A DNA stretch of 64,000 nucleotides from Aequorivita iocasae (GTDB taxonomy: Bacteria; Bacteroidota; Bacteroidia; Flavobacteriales; Flavobacteriaceae). The position numbers and the translations under genes are program-made. Of the stretch, positions 30,277 through 47,137 are shown piece by piece (position 1 is the stretch's first letter; each line of letters opens with the position of its first letter). The notes below the pieces were generated by a model that was not told the DNA's origin, did not search any database, and saw only the letters and a program-made list of their open reading frames with translations. The stretch is taken from contig NZ_CP068439.1 in the NCBI RefSeq assembly GCF_016757735.1, positions 372,001 through 436,000 on the forward strand, in the 5' to 3' direction.

Positions 30277-30555
30277 GCAAACCCACTAACCTTTGTAATA
30301 TGATATTTATCACCTAATAGAATATATTTAAGATAATTTAATCTGTAATACTAAAAAATAATTTTTCACTTTACATTATTTTAAAAAATTGTCAACTTTT
30401 CGCTGTTGATAAATTTTTATTAAACTGATTTGCAATATATTAACAATTGATTATTGACAACTTTAAATTTTAAATTTTAAATCAGGATTACTATTTCATT
30501 ATATTTACCTACTTTAAATTTCAAATTCAAAACAATCCAAAATTCATTTCAGAAT
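30277..30555. other. AT-rich divergent intergenic region
   Basis: About 280 bases between the copper operon and nrdJ. It is very AT-rich and contains a 7-base periodic run of TAAATTT at 30464-30482, with further TTTAAATTT-like words near 30512. Such A/T tracts suggest curved DNA or an upstream promoter element. TATATTTA at 30500-30507 is a possible -7 element for nrdJ. No cobalamin riboswitch signature is seen. Confidence 0.5.
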
Positions 30556-33108
30556 ATGCAAATAAAAACATCCATCCCCGCCCCCAAAACTTATACACAA
30601 GATGAAGCTTTCAATGCTTCTGTAGAATATTTTAAAGGTGATGATCTTGCCGCCCGAGTTTGGGTGAACAAGTATGCTCTGAAAGATTCTGAAGGCAATA
30701 TTTATGAAAAAACGCCGAATGATATGCACCGTCGTATCGCCAAAGAAATTGCCCGCATTGAACAACGTTATGCCAATCCCATGAGTGAAGATGAGATTTT
30801 TGAAGCAATAAAGGATTTTAAATACATCGTTCCACAAGGTAGTCCAATGGCGGGAATTGGCAATCCGTATCAAGTGGGTTCCCTTTCAAATTGTTTCGTA
30901 ATTGGCAACGAAGGCGATTCCGATTCCTACGGCGGCATAATGAAAATTGACCAAGAACAGGTACAATTGATGAAACGTCGCGGCGGTGTAGGCCACGATC
31001 TTTCGCACATTCGCCCCAAAGGCTCACCGGTGAAAAATTCAGCTTTGACCTCAACTGGCATTGTTCCTTTTATGGAGCGATATTCAAATTCAACCCGTGA
31101 AGTTGCGCAGGATGGGCGTCGTGGCGCCCTTATGCTTTCCGTTTCAATAAACCATCCTGACTCCGAAGATTTTATCGATGCCAAAATGGAGCAGGGTAAA
31201 GTTACGGGCGCAAATGTTTCCGTACGAATGGACGATACTTTTATGAAAGCCGTAAAAGACGAGAAAAAATATACCCAGAAATATCCAATTTTCAGCGAAA
31301 ACCCAAAGTTTTCAAAGGAAATTGAAGCTGGAAAACTTTGGAAAAAAATAGTGCACAACGCTTGGAAATCTGCCGAGCCAGGCATTCTTTTTTGGGATAC
31401 AATTATAAATGAGTCCGTGCCGGATTGCTATGCAGATTTGGGTTACAAAACAGTTTCCACAAACCCTTGCGGCGAAATCCCGCTCTGTCCTTACGATTCC
31501 TGCCGGTTGTTAGCGATAAATCTGTTTTCTTATGTAGAAAATCCGTTTACCGATAAAGCTGAATTCAATTTTGAACTTTTCAAAAAACACATTGGCATCG
31601 CCCAAAAAATTATGGACGATATTATTGATTTGGAATTGGAAAAAGTAGACGCGATTATCGCAAAAATTGACGCCGATCCACAAAGTGATGAAGTAAAAGC
31701 AGTGGAAAGAAATCTGTGGAAAAATATACAGAGAAAAGCTGAAGAAGGCCGAAGAACGGGAATTGGAATCACCGCGGAAGGCGACATGCTCGCCGCTTTG
31801 GGAATAAAGTACGGCAGCAAGGAAGGCAATGATTTTTCAGTTAAAATCCATAAAAATCTGGCAATTGAAACGTATCGTGCATCGGTTTATGCCGCAAAGG
31901 AAAGAGGTGCTTTCAAAATTTTTGATTCCGAAAGGGAAAAGGAGAATCCATTTATCCTTCGCCTAAAAGATGCCGATGAAAAACTGTATTACGATATGCT
32001 GGAATACGGCCGCCGAAACATCGCTCTTTTAACTATTGCGCCGACGGGAACTACCAGTTTAATGACGCAAACTTCTTCAGGAATTGAGCCTGTTTTTCTT
32101 CCGGTTTACAAGAGAAGAAGGAAAGTGAATCCAAACGATAAAAATTCCCGAGTTGACTTCGTGGATGAAGTAGGCGACAGCTGGGAGGAATACGTGGTTT
32201 TTCACCACCGTTTCAAGCAATGGATGGAAGTTAACAGTATTGCGACCGACAAAAATTACAGTCAGGAAGAATTGAACAAAATCGTAAAGAAATCGCCGTA
32301 TTACAAAGCTACTTCAAACGATGTGGATTGGCTGAGCAAAGTGCGTATGCAAGGCGCAGTGCAAAAATGGGTGGACCATTCCATTTCGGTGACCATCAAT
32401 TTGCCGAATGATGCTACTGAAGAATTGGTTGGAAAACTATACTTGGAAGCGTGGCAGGCAGGATGTAAAGGCGTTACCGTTTATCGCGATGGGTCGCGTT
32501 CGGGCGTTTTAATTTCCAATGAAGAAAAGAAAGAGGAAAGCACTGAAACGCTTACTACTTTCCCCACAAAACGTCCCGAAACTCTTGAAGCAGATGTTGT
32601 TCGTTTTCAAAACAGTAAAGACAAATGGATTGCCTTTATCGGTTTGATTGACGGAAAACCGTATGAGATTTTCACAGGTTTTGCAGATGATGAAGATGGA
32701 ATTTTGATTCCACGTTGGGTGAATAACGGTGTTATCATTAAAAACCGAAACGAGGATGGTACTTCGCGTTACGATTTTCAATATAAAAACAAAAGAGGCT
32801 ACAAAACCACCATTGAAGGGCTTTCGCATAAATTCAACCCCGAGTTTTGGAACTATGCAAAATTAATTTCCAGTACCCTTCGCCACGGCATGCCGATAGA
32901 AAAAGTGGTGGATTTGATAAACAGCCTGCAACTTGATAGCGAAAGTATCAACACTTGGAAAAACGGGGTTGCGCGCGCCTTAAAACGCTATGTTGCCGAT
33001 GGAACGGAAGCCAGAAAACAGAAATGTGAAAACTGCAATAGTACGTCGCTTATTTACCAGGAAGGTTGTTTGACTTGCAAGGATTGCGGGTCTTCTAAGT
33101 GCGGGTAG
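30556..33108 (+). CDS. nrdJ: Adenosylcobalamin-dependent ribonucleoside-diphosphate reductase (class II)
   Basis: 850 residues. The N-terminus has PMAGIGNPYQVGSLSNCFVIG (first active-site Cys) and the ten-stranded barrel follows, with RRGGVGHDLSHIRPKGSPVK, STNPCGEIPLCPYDSCRL (radical Cys region) and TIAPTGTTSLMTQTSSGIEP. The C-terminal 30 residues form a Cys-rich tail (CENCN, then CLTCKDCGSSKCG) that probably binds zinc and helps re-reduce the active site. The enzyme makes deoxyribonucleotides using a B12-derived radical and works with or without oxygen. It is transcribed alone. A class I enzyme, if any, is not in this window. Confidence 0.95.
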   Translation: MQIKTSIPAPKTYTQDEAFNASVEYFKGDDLAARVWVNKYALKDSEGNIYEKTPNDMHRRIAKEIARIEQRYANPMSEDEIFEAIKDFKYIVPQGSPMAGIGNPYQVGSLSNCFVIGNEGDSDSYGGIMKIDQEQVQLMKRRGGVGHDLSHIRPKGSPVKNSALTSTGIVPFMERYSNSTREVAQDGRRGALMLSVSINHPDSEDFIDAKMEQGKVTGANVSVRMDDTFMKAVKDEKKYTQKYPIFSENPKFSKEIEAGKLWKKIVHNAWKSAEPGILFWDTIINESVPDCYADLGYKTVSTNPCGEIPLCPYDSCRLLAINLFSYVENPFTDKAEFNFELFKKHIGIAQKIMDDIIDLELEKVDAIIAKIDADPQSDEVKAVERNLWKNIQRKAEEGRRTGIGITAEGDMLAALGIKYGSKEGNDFSVKIHKNLAIETYRASVYAAKERGAFKIFDSEREKENPFILRLKDADEKLYYDMLEYGRRNIALLTIAPTGTTSLMTQTSSGIEPVFLPVYKRRRKVNPNDKNSRVDFVDEVGDSWEEYVVFHHRFKQWMEVNSIATDKNYSQEELNKIVKKSPYYKATSNDVDWLSKVRMQGAVQKWVDHSISVTINLPNDATEELVGKLYLEAWQAGCKGVTVYRDGSRSGVLISNEEKKEESTETLTTFPTKRPETLEADVVRFQNSKDKWIAFIGLIDGKPYEIFTGFADDEDGILIPRWVNNGVIIKNRNEDGTSRYDFQYKNKRGYKTTIEGLSHKFNPEFWNYAKLISSTLRHGMPIEKVVDLINSLQLDSESINTWKNGVARALKRYVADGTEARKQKCENCNSTSLIYQEGCLTCKDCGSSKCG

Positions 33109-44022: not shown

Positions 44023-44463
44023 ATGCTTTTCAGAAAAAAGAAAGAAAAACAACCTTCCAACATTTCCATGATGGACAATAAAGTAAATGATGACTTTGTA
44101 GCGGAAAAAGTTACAAAAATAAAGGACGAAGATGTTGAATTAGTGATGGATAATGAAGAAGCCATTTCCCAAAAACTGAGCAACGCCAGTCCTTTAAGAA
44201 AATATGCCGAGCTGGGAAAAATTATGTTCGCAATGTTGAAAGACGTTAAAAAAGGCAATTATCCAAACGTGCCATGGTTTACTATTGCTTCCATTGTGGT
44301 GGTGCTATTGTATATTTTCAATCCTTTAGACTTGGTTCCAGATTTCATCCCCGGAATAGGTTATATTGATGATTTGGCAGTACTTTCCATCGGGATGGGA
44401 TGGATAGAAACCGACCTGCATAAATATTTGGATTGGCGATTGGCAAATGGTGAAAACGCCTAA
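44023..44463 (+). CDS. DUF1232 (YkvA-type) membrane protein
   Basis: 146 residues. After a charged N-terminal region of about 75 residues it has the DUF1232 core: ASIVVVLLYIFNPLDLVPDF, IPGIGYIDDLAVL and the final amphipathic segment. Function is unknown; the core is one or two membrane helices. Its stop codon overlaps the folD stop by 3 bases (44461-44462 shared), tail-to-tail, so the two mRNAs are complementary at their 3' ends. Confidence 0.9.
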   Translation: MLFRKKKEKQPSNISMMDNKVNDDFVAEKVTKIKDEDVELVMDNEEAISQKLSNASPLRKYAELGKIMFAMLKDVKKGNYPNVPWFTIASIVVVLLYIFNPLDLVPDFIPGIGYIDDLAVLSIGMGWIETDLHKYLDWRLANGENA

Positions 44464-45338
44464 GCTCTGCGTTGTTCCCGTGCCAGAAGGGTGTTTTTAA
44501 GGAGCATGGCTATGGTCATAGGCCCCACGCCACCTGGAACGGGCGTTATGAACGAGGCTTTTTTACTTACATTTTCAAAATCAACATCGCCAGTAATAAC
44601 GTAACCTTTGGGATGGTTTGCATCTTCAACTCTGGTAATGCCCACATCAATAATAACCGCATCATCCTTTACCATTTCGGCCTTTAAAAAATTGGGAACT
44701 CCCAATGCTGAAATTATAATATCGGCTTGGGTAGTTATTTGTGCAATGTTTTTTGTGTTGCTGTGCGTAAGTGTTACCGTGCTATTTCCGGGCCATCCTT
44801 TACGGCTCATCAAAATACTCATCGGGCGCCCCACAATATGGCTTCTTCCAATAACTACGGTATGTTTTCCTTTGGTATCCACGTCATAACGCTGCAGTAA
44901 TTCAAGAATCCCGAAAGGGGTTGCGGGAATAAAGGTGCTCATATCCAAAGCCATTTTTCCGAAGTTTTCAGGATGAAAACCATCTACATCCTTTGAAGGA
45001 TCTACAGTAAGCAATACTTTTTGGGTATCAATCTGTGGAGGCAAGGGAAGCTGAACGATGAAGCCATCAATATTGTCGTCTTCGTTGAGTTCTTTGATCT
45101 TTTTTAATAATTCTAATTCACTGGTAGTATCAGGCATTTTAACCAATGTGGACTCAAAACCAACCCGCTCGCATGCCTTAACCTTGCTTCCAACATATGT
45201 AAGACTAGCCCCATCATTTCCAACAATAATAGCTGCTAAATGTGGAACTTTTTCACCACGCGCTTTCATTTTATCAACCTCGGCAGTGATTTCGTTTTTT
45301 ATGTCGTTACTTACTTTTTTCCCGTCTAGTATTGTCAT
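44460..45338 (-). CDS. folD: Bifunctional methylenetetrahydrofolate dehydrogenase/cyclohydrolase
   Basis: 292 residues. Signatures are AAIIVGNDGASLTYVGSKVK (catalytic Lys in YVGSK), GFIVQLPLPPQID, VDGFHPENFG, the NADP-binding VIGRSHIVGRPMSIL, and PVPGGVGPMTIAMLLKNT. The enzyme interconverts 5,10-methylene-THF and 10-formyl-THF, the latter being the formyl donor for PurH at the start of the window. It lies downstream of ffh on the same strand; the gap between them is filled by a decayed IVS-like element. Confidence 0.96.
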   Translation of the reverse strand: MTILDGKKVSNDIKNEITAEVDKMKARGEKVPHLAAIIVGNDGASLTYVGSKVKACERVGFESTLVKMPDTTSELELLKKIKELNEDDNIDGFIVQLPLPPQIDTQKVLLTVDPSKDVDGFHPENFGKMALDMSTFIPATPFGILELLQRYDVDTKGKHTVVIGRSHIVGRPMSILMSRKGWPGNSTVTLTHSNTKNIAQITTQADIIISALGVPNFLKAEMVKDDAVIIDVGITRVEDANHPKGYVITGDVDFENVSKKASFITPVPGGVGPMTIAMLLKNTLLAREQRRA

Positions 45339-45345
45339 ATTTATT

Positions 45346-45373
45346 AGTTTTCAGTCGCAGTCGCAGTTTTCAG
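45346..45373. repeat. Left inverted repeat of the IVS-like element
   Basis: The arm runs from AGTTTTCAGTCGCAG through a duplicated TCGCAG to TTTTCAG. Without the extra 6-base copy it matches the reverse complement of 45784-45805 at 20 of 22 positions, including a perfect TCAGTCGCAGT core. It begins 8 bases from the folD start codon. Confidence 0.75.
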
Positions 45374-45387
45374 TGGTAAAATTTTGA

Positions 45388-45765
45388 TTAATTATCTTCT
45401 TTATCAACGCCAAACTTATCTGGATTATTTATCATATAATTGATTAGTTTTCCTATTTCAACATTCTCTTATGACAATCCTTTATAAATACTCTCATTTA
45501 TATATTCACAAGAAAAAGCATAATCTAACCATACACTTGTTTCTGAATTTTCGCCATCAAAATCTGTCAGTTTACTAATGAAATGTTGCGGATATTTTCT
45601 TTTCCGATATGCTTCAGCAATATTTGCAGAAACAGAGCGCGAACTCCTTCATATCTGGTCTGTTAATGAATATTTTTCTTCCTTTGGAAATGATTTTGAA
45701 ACATTATAGATCGCCATTGCCAAATCGAACGACTTTTGATAAGATATTAATTTTTTAAAATCCAT
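45388..45765 (-). pseudogene. Four-helix-bundle (23S rRNA IVS / S23-type) protein, broken by two stops
   Basis: One continuous frame of 126 codons on the minus strand, ATG at 45765 to TAA at 45388. It translates as a recognisable four-helix-bundle protein: MDFKKLISYQKSFDLAMAIY, SFPKEEKYSLTDQI, then RSSRSVSANIAEAYRKRKYP, followed by EYINESIYKGLS and ENVEIGKLINYMI. The frame is interrupted by TGA at codon 39 (45651-45649), where the family has Arg, and by TAA at codon 99 (45471-45469). There is no frameshift, so decay is recent. The family is best known from intervening sequences in 23S rRNA genes; free-standing copies are frequent in Bacteroidota. It is framed by inverted repeats. Confidence 0.9.
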
Positions 45766-45783
45766 ATTTATTTAAAATCAAAG

Positions 45784-45805
45784 CTGACAACTGCGACTGA
45801 GAACT
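45784..45805. repeat. Right inverted repeat of the IVS-like element
   Basis: CTGACAACTGCGACTGAGAACT, here read from 45784 in shorter form CTGACAACTGCGACTGAGAA, is the reverse-complement partner of 45346-45373. It ends 3 bases before the ffh stop codon. Confidence 0.75.
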
Positions 45806-45808
45806 TGA

Positions 45809-47137
45809 TTAACGCATCCGCCCCATAGCCTGCATCATCTTTCTTCCGCCGCCACCTTGCATCATCTTCATCATTTTGCTCATTTGGTCAAACTGTTTTA
45901 AAAGCTGGTTTACTTGCTGTACGCTTGTTCCGCTACCCTTGGCAATTCGCTTTTTTCGGCTTCCGTTTATAATTGCTGGTTCTGTTCTTTCCTTCGGAGT
46001 CATTGAATGGATAATTGCCTCAATTCCTTTAAAAGCATCATCGTCAATATCAACATCTTTCAAGGCTTTTCCGGCGCCGGGAATCATTCCCACCAAATCT
46101 TTCATACTTCCCATTTTCTTAACCTGCTGTATTTGGTTCAGGAAATCATCAAAACCAAATTGGTTTTTCGCAATTTTCTTTTGAAGTTTTCTGGCTTCCT
46201 CTTCATCAAATTGTTCCTGCGCACGTTCCACAAGCGAAACAACGTCTCCCATCCCCAAAATACGGTCGGCCATACGGGCCGGGTGAAACACATCAATGGC
46301 GTCCATTTTTTCACCGGTACCGATGAATTTAATAGGTTTATCAACAACACTTTTAATGGAAATGGCAGCACCCCCGCGGGTATCACCATCCAGTTTAGTA
46401 AGTACGACACCATCAAAATTTAGCCGATCGTTAAAAGCTTTTGCGGTATTCACTGCATCCTGCCCTGTCATTGCGTCCACCACAAAAAGGGTTTCCTGGG
46501 GGTTGATTGCTTTATGAACATTTGCAATTTCGGTCATCATCGCTTCGTCTATGGCGAGACGACCAGCTGTATCCACAATTACAACATTAAAGCCATTTTG
46601 CTTTGCGTGTGCAATTGCGTTTTGTGCAATCTGTACCGGGTTTTTATTTTCGGGTTCGCTGTAAACCTCAACGCCTATTTGGTCACCGACAACGTGCAAT
46701 TGGTTAATCGCCGCCGGACGGTAAATATCACAGGCTACTAAAAGTGGTTTTTTTGTTTTTTTTGTTTTAAGGTAATTCGCAAGTTTTCCGGAAAAAGTAG
46801 TTTTACCACTACCCTGCAGACCAGACATTAAAATAACCGTTGGCGCACCACTCAAATTGATTCCAGCAGTTTCGCCACCCATCAATTCGGTAAGTTCGTC
46901 TTTTACCAACTTCACCATCAATTGGCCGGGCTGCAAAGTGGTAAGTACGTTTTGCCCCAGTGCCTTTTCCTTTACGGTATTGGTAAATTCTTTTGCGGTT
47001 TTAAAGTTAACGTCGGCGTCCAAAAGGGCGCGGCGTACTTCCTTTAAAGTTTCGGCTACGTTTACCTCGGTGATGCTGCCGTGACCTTTCAGTACGTGCA
47101 ACGCTTTGTCCAGCTTATCGCTTAAATTATCAAACAT
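45809..47137 (-). CDS. ffh: Signal recognition particle protein Ffh (SRP54)
   Basis: 442 residues. The N domain is followed by the G domain with GLQGSGKTTFSGKLANYL (P-loop), ACDIYRPAAINQL, DTAGRLAIDEAMM and TKLDGDTRGGAA. The C-terminal M domain is Met-rich, ending in MSKMMKMMQGGGGRKMMQAM, and binds both signal peptides and 4.5S RNA. Ffh delivers nascent membrane proteins to FtsY and SecYEG. It has a near-perfect promoter and is followed by the IVS-like element and folD. Confidence 0.97.
   Translation of the reverse strand: MFDNLSDKLDKALHVLKGHGSITEVNVAETLKEVRRALLDADVNFKTAKEFTNTVKEKALGQNVLTTLQPGQLMVKLVKDELTELMGGETAGINLSGAPTVILMSGLQGSGKTTFSGKLANYLKTKKTKKPLLVACDIYRPAAINQLHVVGDQIGVEVYSEPENKNPVQIAQNAIAHAKQNGFNVVIVDTAGRLAIDEAMMTEIANVHKAINPQETLFVVDAMTGQDAVNTAKAFNDRLNFDGVVLTKLDGDTRGGAAISIKSVVDKPIKFIGTGEKMDAIDVFHPARMADRILGMGDVVSLVERAQEQFDEEEARKLQKKIAKNQFGFDDFLNQIQQVKKMGSMKDLVGMIPGAGKALKDVDIDDDAFKGIEAIIHSMTPKERTEPAIINGSRKKRIAKGSGTSVQQVNQLLKQFDQMSKMMKMMQGGGGRKMMQAMGRMR

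Follow-up and report, generated by a model that had tools for sequence, protein, structure and literature searches.

In REP-RAYT systems, a gene lies between lineage-specific inverted repeats and is accompanied by gene-less copies, and in diversity-generating retroelements the protein Avd, a pentameric four-helix-bundle homologue of S23, works together with nucleic acid. To our knowledge, S23 has no known catalytic activity. The intervening sequences (IVSs) of 23S rRNA genes, in which an S23-family gene occupies the loop of a terminal inverted repeat, have been described as possible mobile or selfish elements of unclear function (PMC4990558, available in part). According to the accessible portion of the same paper, the S23 family has no known function, the X. 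campestris S23 protein forms a homopentameric torus, RNase III cleaves an rRNA IVS, and the Coxiella IVS has a terminal stem of 28 bp, with GACAGAT heptamers preceding the start of S23p.

Heptamer repeats are the other described system to be considered here. In the available parts of the respective papers, TAACTGA heptamers are reported from Beggiatoaceae, Cyanobacteria and Bacteroidetes, with an abstract stating that their horizontal transfer has no evident mechanism (PMC4679880), and GGGAATC from Xanthomonas and GGGGA(C/T)T from Nostoc, with the remark that heptamer repeats are over-represented in bacteria and lack a detailed literature (PMC4692102). As far as these portions go, such repeats resemble the arms described below in being seven bases long, mostly intergenic, often near start or stop codons and sometimes in inverted pairs, and they come from groups in which S23 genes occur. 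The accessible text of PMC4679880 makes no mention of S23, intervening or four-helix, nor does that of PMC4692102 mention four-helix or XCC0516. Among the open-licence literature searched, no paper linking IVSs or S23 genes to heptamer repeats was found, and the available portions of the open-licence IVS literature searched held no description of lineage-specific heptad arms.

The element studied here fills the gap between ffh and folD (45346–45805) in a 64,000-nucleotide window, i.e., the whole stretch of DNA that was analysed, which belongs to a single-contig genome of 3.35 Mb, and it consists of a minus-strand S23 (PF05635) gene between inverted arms. The decayed gene (45388–45765) runs from an ATG at 45765 to its own TAA, codon 126, and its frame is broken on the minus strand by a TGA at codon 39 (45649–45651) and a TAA at codon 99 (45469–45471), just as a preliminary description of the locus had claimed. 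The assignment to the S23 four-helix-bundle family made there held as well, the frame giving a full-length match to PF05635 (23S_rRNA_IVP) that scores 106.7 bits (cut-off 33.8) and covers positions 1–105 of 106. Both neighbours lie on the minus strand too, ffh upstream (45809–47137) and folD downstream (44460–45338). With ffh ending at 45809 and folD starting at 45338, the 5′ arm (45784–45805, minus strand; AGTTCTCAGTCGCAGTTGTCAG on the gene strand) begins 3 nt past the ffh stop codon and the 3′ arm (45346–45373, minus strand; CTGAAAACTGCGACTGCGACTGAAAACT on the gene strand) stops 7 nt short of folD, so that the element does nearly touch both genes, as had been noted. The S23 frame lies in the 410 nt that separate the arms, the other listed frames there being at most 49 aa long, and no transposase is found in that frame list. 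The element is not inside 23S rRNA, and in the whole window Rfam matched only a tRNA, away from the element.

The two arms (45346–45373 against the reverse complement of 45784–45805) are identical at 20 of 22 positions when the six bases TCGCAG are set aside. This earlier count was reproduced, and the reading of the six bases as a duplication was given up, TCGCAG being a single repeat of an array with a short period. Read on the gene strand, the 5′ arm is AGT TCT CAGT CG CAGT TGT CAG, its CAGT cores spaced 2–3 bases apart, and in the 3′ arm ACTG/CAGT cores recur every 6–7 nt. A simple 22-mer was rejected as a description of the arms, which are repeat arrays.

The genome contains relatives of the broken frame, for which the preliminary description had proposed to search: 17 PF05635 rows correspond to 16 copies, the window gene being one of them, because one copy is split (L013/L017), and 15 copies were scored after the split one was left out. 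The arm score was the best inverted match of the 5′ flank against the 3′ flank, with flanks crossed between copies as the null. Own pairs reached a median of 16.5 against 9.0 for crossed pairs, 14 of the 15 copies exceeded the cross-pair 95th percentile, in line with the earlier expectation of arms around other S23 genes, and 11 matched their own partner best; matches in direct orientation had a median of 10.0, with 2/15 above the percentile. Scores of at least 14 were found at 13 of the 15 copies versus 2.2% of 370 other genes sampled from the same genome. A chance inverted repeat was ruled out by these cross-pair and control-gene tests.

The repeat differs from copy to copy, and the left and right arms of each copy agree; heptads of this genome include GTGAGAC, GACAAAA, GTTTAACT, TGAGCTA, TAGTATTGAG and GGATTGTT. 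The exact core CAGTCGCAGT, which had been expected beside other four-helix-bundle genes, is absent at the other 15 copies because each has its own heptad. Four elements (L001, L012, L009 and L006; G000:C1 1754890–1766238) with four different heptads are crowded into some 11 kb of a single gene cluster, which, to judge from the neighbours, looks like a phenylacetate (paa) operon.

The comparison was extended to the genus with 122 loci among the matches listed (15 from the same genome, 27 from a family search and 80 by coordinates; two folD-site loci, L081 and L082, were left out), which represent 44 junctions, each defined by both neighbours; removal of loci that lacked a neighbour, or whose flanks were short or contained N, gave 118 and then 116. 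Of these last, 99 exceeded the 95th percentile of pairs from other junctions and 17 did not. In a 29-locus genus set, inverted matches were above the cross-pair 95th percentile at 19 loci and below at 10, with the direct-orientation control also above it at 12; in a 29-locus phylum set the inverted matches exceeded the cross-pair percentile at 17 (12 did not) and direct ones at 5. Within junctions (n = 19), own arm pairs scored 16.3 versus 14.1 for arms mixed among orthologues, a difference equalled in 0 of 5000 permutations, and own pairs were no better than mixed ones at roughly half of the 19, those with conserved arms.

The arms are arrays of some four to five repeats with a period of seven. 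In the 5′ arms of 45 non-redundant genus elements (44 with an arm match), identity was 0.543 at lag 7 and 0.523 at lag 14, as against 0.26–0.34 at other lags, and 74% of 236 arms had a heptad score above the 95th percentile of coding sequence. A clear repeat run was present in 95 left and 89 right arms of 118, with a median length of 30–31 nt, i.e., four to five heptads. The CAGT dialect of the window copy keeps a looser period of 6–7 nt, CAGT plus 2–3 bases.

S23 genes mostly read in the same direction as the genes around them. By gene borders taken from a simple open-frame rule, which may be wrong in single cases, 113 of 118 genus loci were co-oriented with both neighbours (by junction, 35 sense, 1 antisense and 4 other), and 49.5% of control genes had both neighbours on their own strand. 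The bias was weaker outside the genus, with 20/26 phylum loci in sense; it was seen at 67 of 78 named loci (3 antisense) and at 11 of 14 annotated plasmid loci (2 antisense). At most loci the arms begin beside the stop codon of the gene upstream and leave some bases free ahead of the following start codon; distances of 80 to several hundred bases occur as exceptions.

The same junction was found filled, gene-less or empty in different species. Among 28 genus genomes, the present one included, the folD–ffh site holds an open S23 frame in 10, an interrupted full-length one in 4 (including the window copy), what was read as a remnant in 4, a gene-less repeat array or hairpin in 5, and a short gap of 58–59 nt in 5. 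The latter supply the empty site that the preliminary description had proposed to look for, and the outcome that would have spoken against it, relatives with an intact gene and no repeat arms, was not encountered, since repeat arms flank the open S23 frames at this site. Array lengths at folD–ffh differ between species. The short gap (L029, L036, L039, L053, L054) contains a different palindrome, of the TGTCACCTCGAGCGCAGTCGAGAGG type. A second site surrounds what we take, from its sequence, to be a thiolase-like gene, which is present in 27 genomes, 26 of which were analysed (L195 was left out). Downstream of it there were 14 S23 genes (two weak or broken), 7 gene-less arrays and 5 bare gaps of 18–26 nt; upstream, 13 S23 genes and 9 gene-less hairpins, each of one of three heptad families, and in 4 genomes (L200, L203, L205, L210) an unrelated CCTCCCC...GGGGAGG hairpin. 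Empty and filled sites compared by eye showed no clear target-site duplication. The mobility claimed in the preliminary description thus gained strong comparative support from the filled and empty states of these sites, from junctions occupied by more than one lineage, and from related proteins that have the same arms at other junctions; movement itself went unseen, neither a transposition event nor an excision product appearing at the sites compared.

Gene-less arrays carry the repeats of S23 arms. Nineteen such arrays were picked by eye from the folD–ffh and thiolase-like-gene sites, and 17 of them scored higher against an S23 arm than the best (15) of 300 genome pieces of 85 bases drawn at random, a count that stands for fewer independent events because some arrays exceed 85 bases and several are orthologous. 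For at least 7 of the 19, a matching S23 arm (score of at least 14) occurred in the same genome among the S23 copies fetched. CAGT arrays, counted with overlapping matches, numbered 0 to 281 per genome; 25 of the 28 genus genomes had more of them than of a reversed-pattern control, and three had none. These three (G009, G012, G027) are among the four genomes whose folD–ffh S23 was read as an old remnant. The median count was 83 in the 17 genomes with a CAGT-lineage S23 versus 19 in the 11 without (Mann-Whitney p 0.002, uncorrected for kinship), and some genomes had many arrays despite having no such gene (97 in G010, 62 in G011). A hairpin census over 459 kb, made up of the window and 395 kb sampled from the genome, gave 2 and 1 hairpins outside masked runs at two stricter settings, which missed a known hairpin; the looser setting gave 13, against 2 and 3 in shuffles, only a weak count in view of the 3 of 15 positive controls that it missed. 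The census also returned a candidate gene-less short-period hairpin at 30438–30556 of the window.

Whether the arms belong to the site or to the gene could be read from a tree of 125 S23 proteins, which had few columns for its rows and left 28 of 120 inner branches open. Most listed junctions form a single clade. At junctions c0, c2 and c9 the proteins are separated by well-supported branches, so that the label must have changed at least 2, 3 and 2 times, respectively; c1 is also split and is compatible with one origin. Different S23 lineages at one junction have different heptads, and related lineages at separate junctions have similar ones: TAGTATTGAG occurs at c0 and c3, GACNTAA at c0 and c2, GTGAGA/GTGAAA at c10 and c17, and AGAGAAGA-like repeats at c2 and c18. 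For pairs from different junctions, arm similarity rose from 5.2–5.5 at 20–50% protein identity to 6.4 at 50–60%, 10.8 at 60–80% (132 pairs) and 16.7 at 80–100% (only 9 pairs). Pairs from the same junction followed a close curve (5.4–5.8 at 30–50%, 7.7 at 50–60%, 10.9 at 60–80%, 18.2 at 80–100%), and because the curves are close, protein kinship rather than site predicts the arms. The overall correlation was weak, with a Mantel rho of 0.145 against a maximum of 0.090 in 500 permutations, and some related lineages have unlike arms (identity 75% with similarity 7.1, 65% with 7.2, 66% with 6.2 and 64% with 5.1). CAGT arms surround each of the three genes of the CAGT lineage that were found outside the folD site (G006, G007, G015; the G007 gene has a stop), and three more distant genes, at 46–49% identity to that lineage, have other heptads. 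Judged from these comparisons of sequences across 28 genus genomes, the repeat follows the S23 protein lineage and not the site.

PF05635 was present in 28/28 genus genomes, in 90 of 118 genomes of a phylum sample and in 0/14 control genomes. The best 80 of at least 588 confirmed loci from one scan, referred to as named loci, were mostly labelled Bacteroidota, the few metagenome-assembled genomes (MAGs) labelled as other phyla being possibly misbinned. Their arms scored 11.3 and 10.3 on the two sides at lag 7, 5.9 and 5.6 at lag 8 and at most 4.0 at other lags; 49 of the 80 exceeded the cross-pair 95th percentile and 31 did not. Plasmid records of S23 numbered 27, of which 25 were cyanobacterial, and 9 of 16 fetched loci (mostly from Cyanobacteria) passed the cross-pair 95th percentile, TTAGCTT and GGGAACA being examples of their heptads; the other 7 did not. 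On cyanobacterial plasmids, S23 lay in two records between cas6 and cas4 and in a third between cas10 and a gene of the cmr3 family (L321, L328, L332). In Azospirillum lipoferum, one of these 9 plasmid-set loci, an S23 gene with arms of GGACGGA/TGACAGA units lies within a 23S rRNA gene, the Rfam match RF02541 spanning the S23 gene. It is thus a true IVS whose arms are of the same kind, with a heptad similar to the GACAGAT of Coxiella, and it bears out the likeness to rRNA intervening sequences drawn in the preliminary description. The elements of the genus differ from IVSs in lying at junctions of protein genes instead of in rRNA and in having gene-less relatives. In the available part of PMC5524665, Table 5 lists, among "phage elements" of Flavobacterium columnare, a four helix bundle gene flanked by genes for guanylate kinase and nicotinate-nucleotide adenylyltransferase; this gene is perhaps an S23 element and not phage.

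Where intact, S23 is under purifying selection, as follows from median dN/dS values of 0.034–0.109 in seven orthologue sets; at fixed sites, such values are equally expected of a gene useful to the host. The copy L001 had sequence matches in PDB only to 2gsc and 2rld, each with five chains per entry. The former is XCC0516, a locus tag that we take to denote Xanthomonas campestris. With a five-fold protein and four to five heptads per arm, about one heptad per subunit is suggested, and S23 would bind the arms, probably as a ring of five.

The element in the window is probably one instance of a mobile insertion element, made up of an S23 gene and two inverted heptad arms that its own S23 would recognise, and is itself best read as a dead, decayed copy. 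The architecture, the seven-base period, the agreement of arms within copies, their link to lineage, the filled and empty sites, the sense bias and the conservation of the protein were all established by comparing sequences, and from them we infer the movement. Each lineage's S23 is predicted to bind its own heptad, and with such lineage-specific recognition gene and arms would travel and diverge together. The symmetric arms mean that each DNA strand starts with the same heptads, like transposon ends. Elements would settle in the gaps between genes of one operon, in sense direction, and be read through from the operon, the orientation being simply explained if, as we suppose, S23 is promoterless and depends on read-through; some would have settled in 23S rRNA as the known IVSs, and hairpins without a gene would be non-autonomous derivatives. 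The mobilising enzyme is missing from this account, with neither a Y1 transposase nor a reverse transcriptase detected in the genome; S23 would drive the movement, and, if the elements do move, the cutting and joining would fall to host replication or repair enzymes, or the chemistry to an unrecognised activity.

Alternatively, the element could be a host cassette for regulation or RNA processing that spreads rarely, by ordinary recombination. Its arms would form an RNA stem in the transcript of the operon, a target for RNase III cleavage or for binding by S23, and the cassette would tune expression between the neighbours. The sense orientation inside operons and the strong purifying selection on S23 would suit such a role, as would the RNase III cleavage of an rRNA IVS cited above and the predicted RNA of the window copy, in which the arms are paired (z −2.12). 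Selection on an RNA stem was, however, unsupported: stem mismatches showed no excess of G-U over A-C in the non-redundant genus elements (57 vs 65) or in 61 named loci (84 vs 91), and all genus loci gave the opposite imbalance (119 vs 168; p 0.0045, loci non-independent). Further points against the cassette, which is unlikely, are the varying occupancy of fixed junctions, the occurrence of different lineages at a single junction and the symmetry of the arms, which resembles that of transposon ends. Much less probable still is a passive origin, with slippage expanding repeats near small genes, template switching keeping the arms complementary and S23 a bystander. Array lengths do vary between species at one site and arm sequences do differ among many orthologues, as it would predict, but such arms occur at only the 2.2% of control genes given above, the period is seven both in the genus and at the named loci, heptads recur in cyanobacteria, and the arms track the S23 lineage across sites.

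The least probable reading makes S23 the cargo, either of REP-like hairpins that depend on a Y1 transposase (RAYT) or of retroelements mobilised by a reverse transcriptase. The architecture does resemble that of REP-RAYT and REPIN systems: a gene between lineage-specific inverted repeats, with gene-less arrays of the same repeats elsewhere. The gene is nevertheless S23 in place of a Y1 transposase, and in this one genome, which has 16 S23 copies, no match to PF01797 (Y1 transposase) or PF00078 (reverse transcriptase RVT_1) was found at E 0.001. The searches themselves work, with 5 and 3 of 14 control genomes positive, respectively, and the lack of a detected reverse transcriptase likewise separates this genome's elements from the Avd-containing retroelements.

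S23 elements stand a fair chance of being a class of their own beside the IVS elements. A wider proposal, put forward tentatively and somewhat doubtful as a whole, is that they form a class of mobile DNA able to do without a transposase or reverse transcriptase of its own, in which a ring-forming protein reads a lineage-specific seven-base code on arms like transposon ends, and of which the rRNA IVSs and the heptamer repeats of cyanobacteria, xanthomonads, Beggiatoaceae and Bacteroidota would be footprints; lineage-specific heptad arms may explain both. The find extends beyond the copy in the window to a widespread element, S23 genes being common in the phylum. Joining S23 genes to heptamer repeats makes both testable: each S23 protein would predict the sequence that it binds, each orphan heptamer family would predict an S23 lineage, and the filled, solo and empty sites would serve as natural panels for the study of a mobile element that has no evident transposase.
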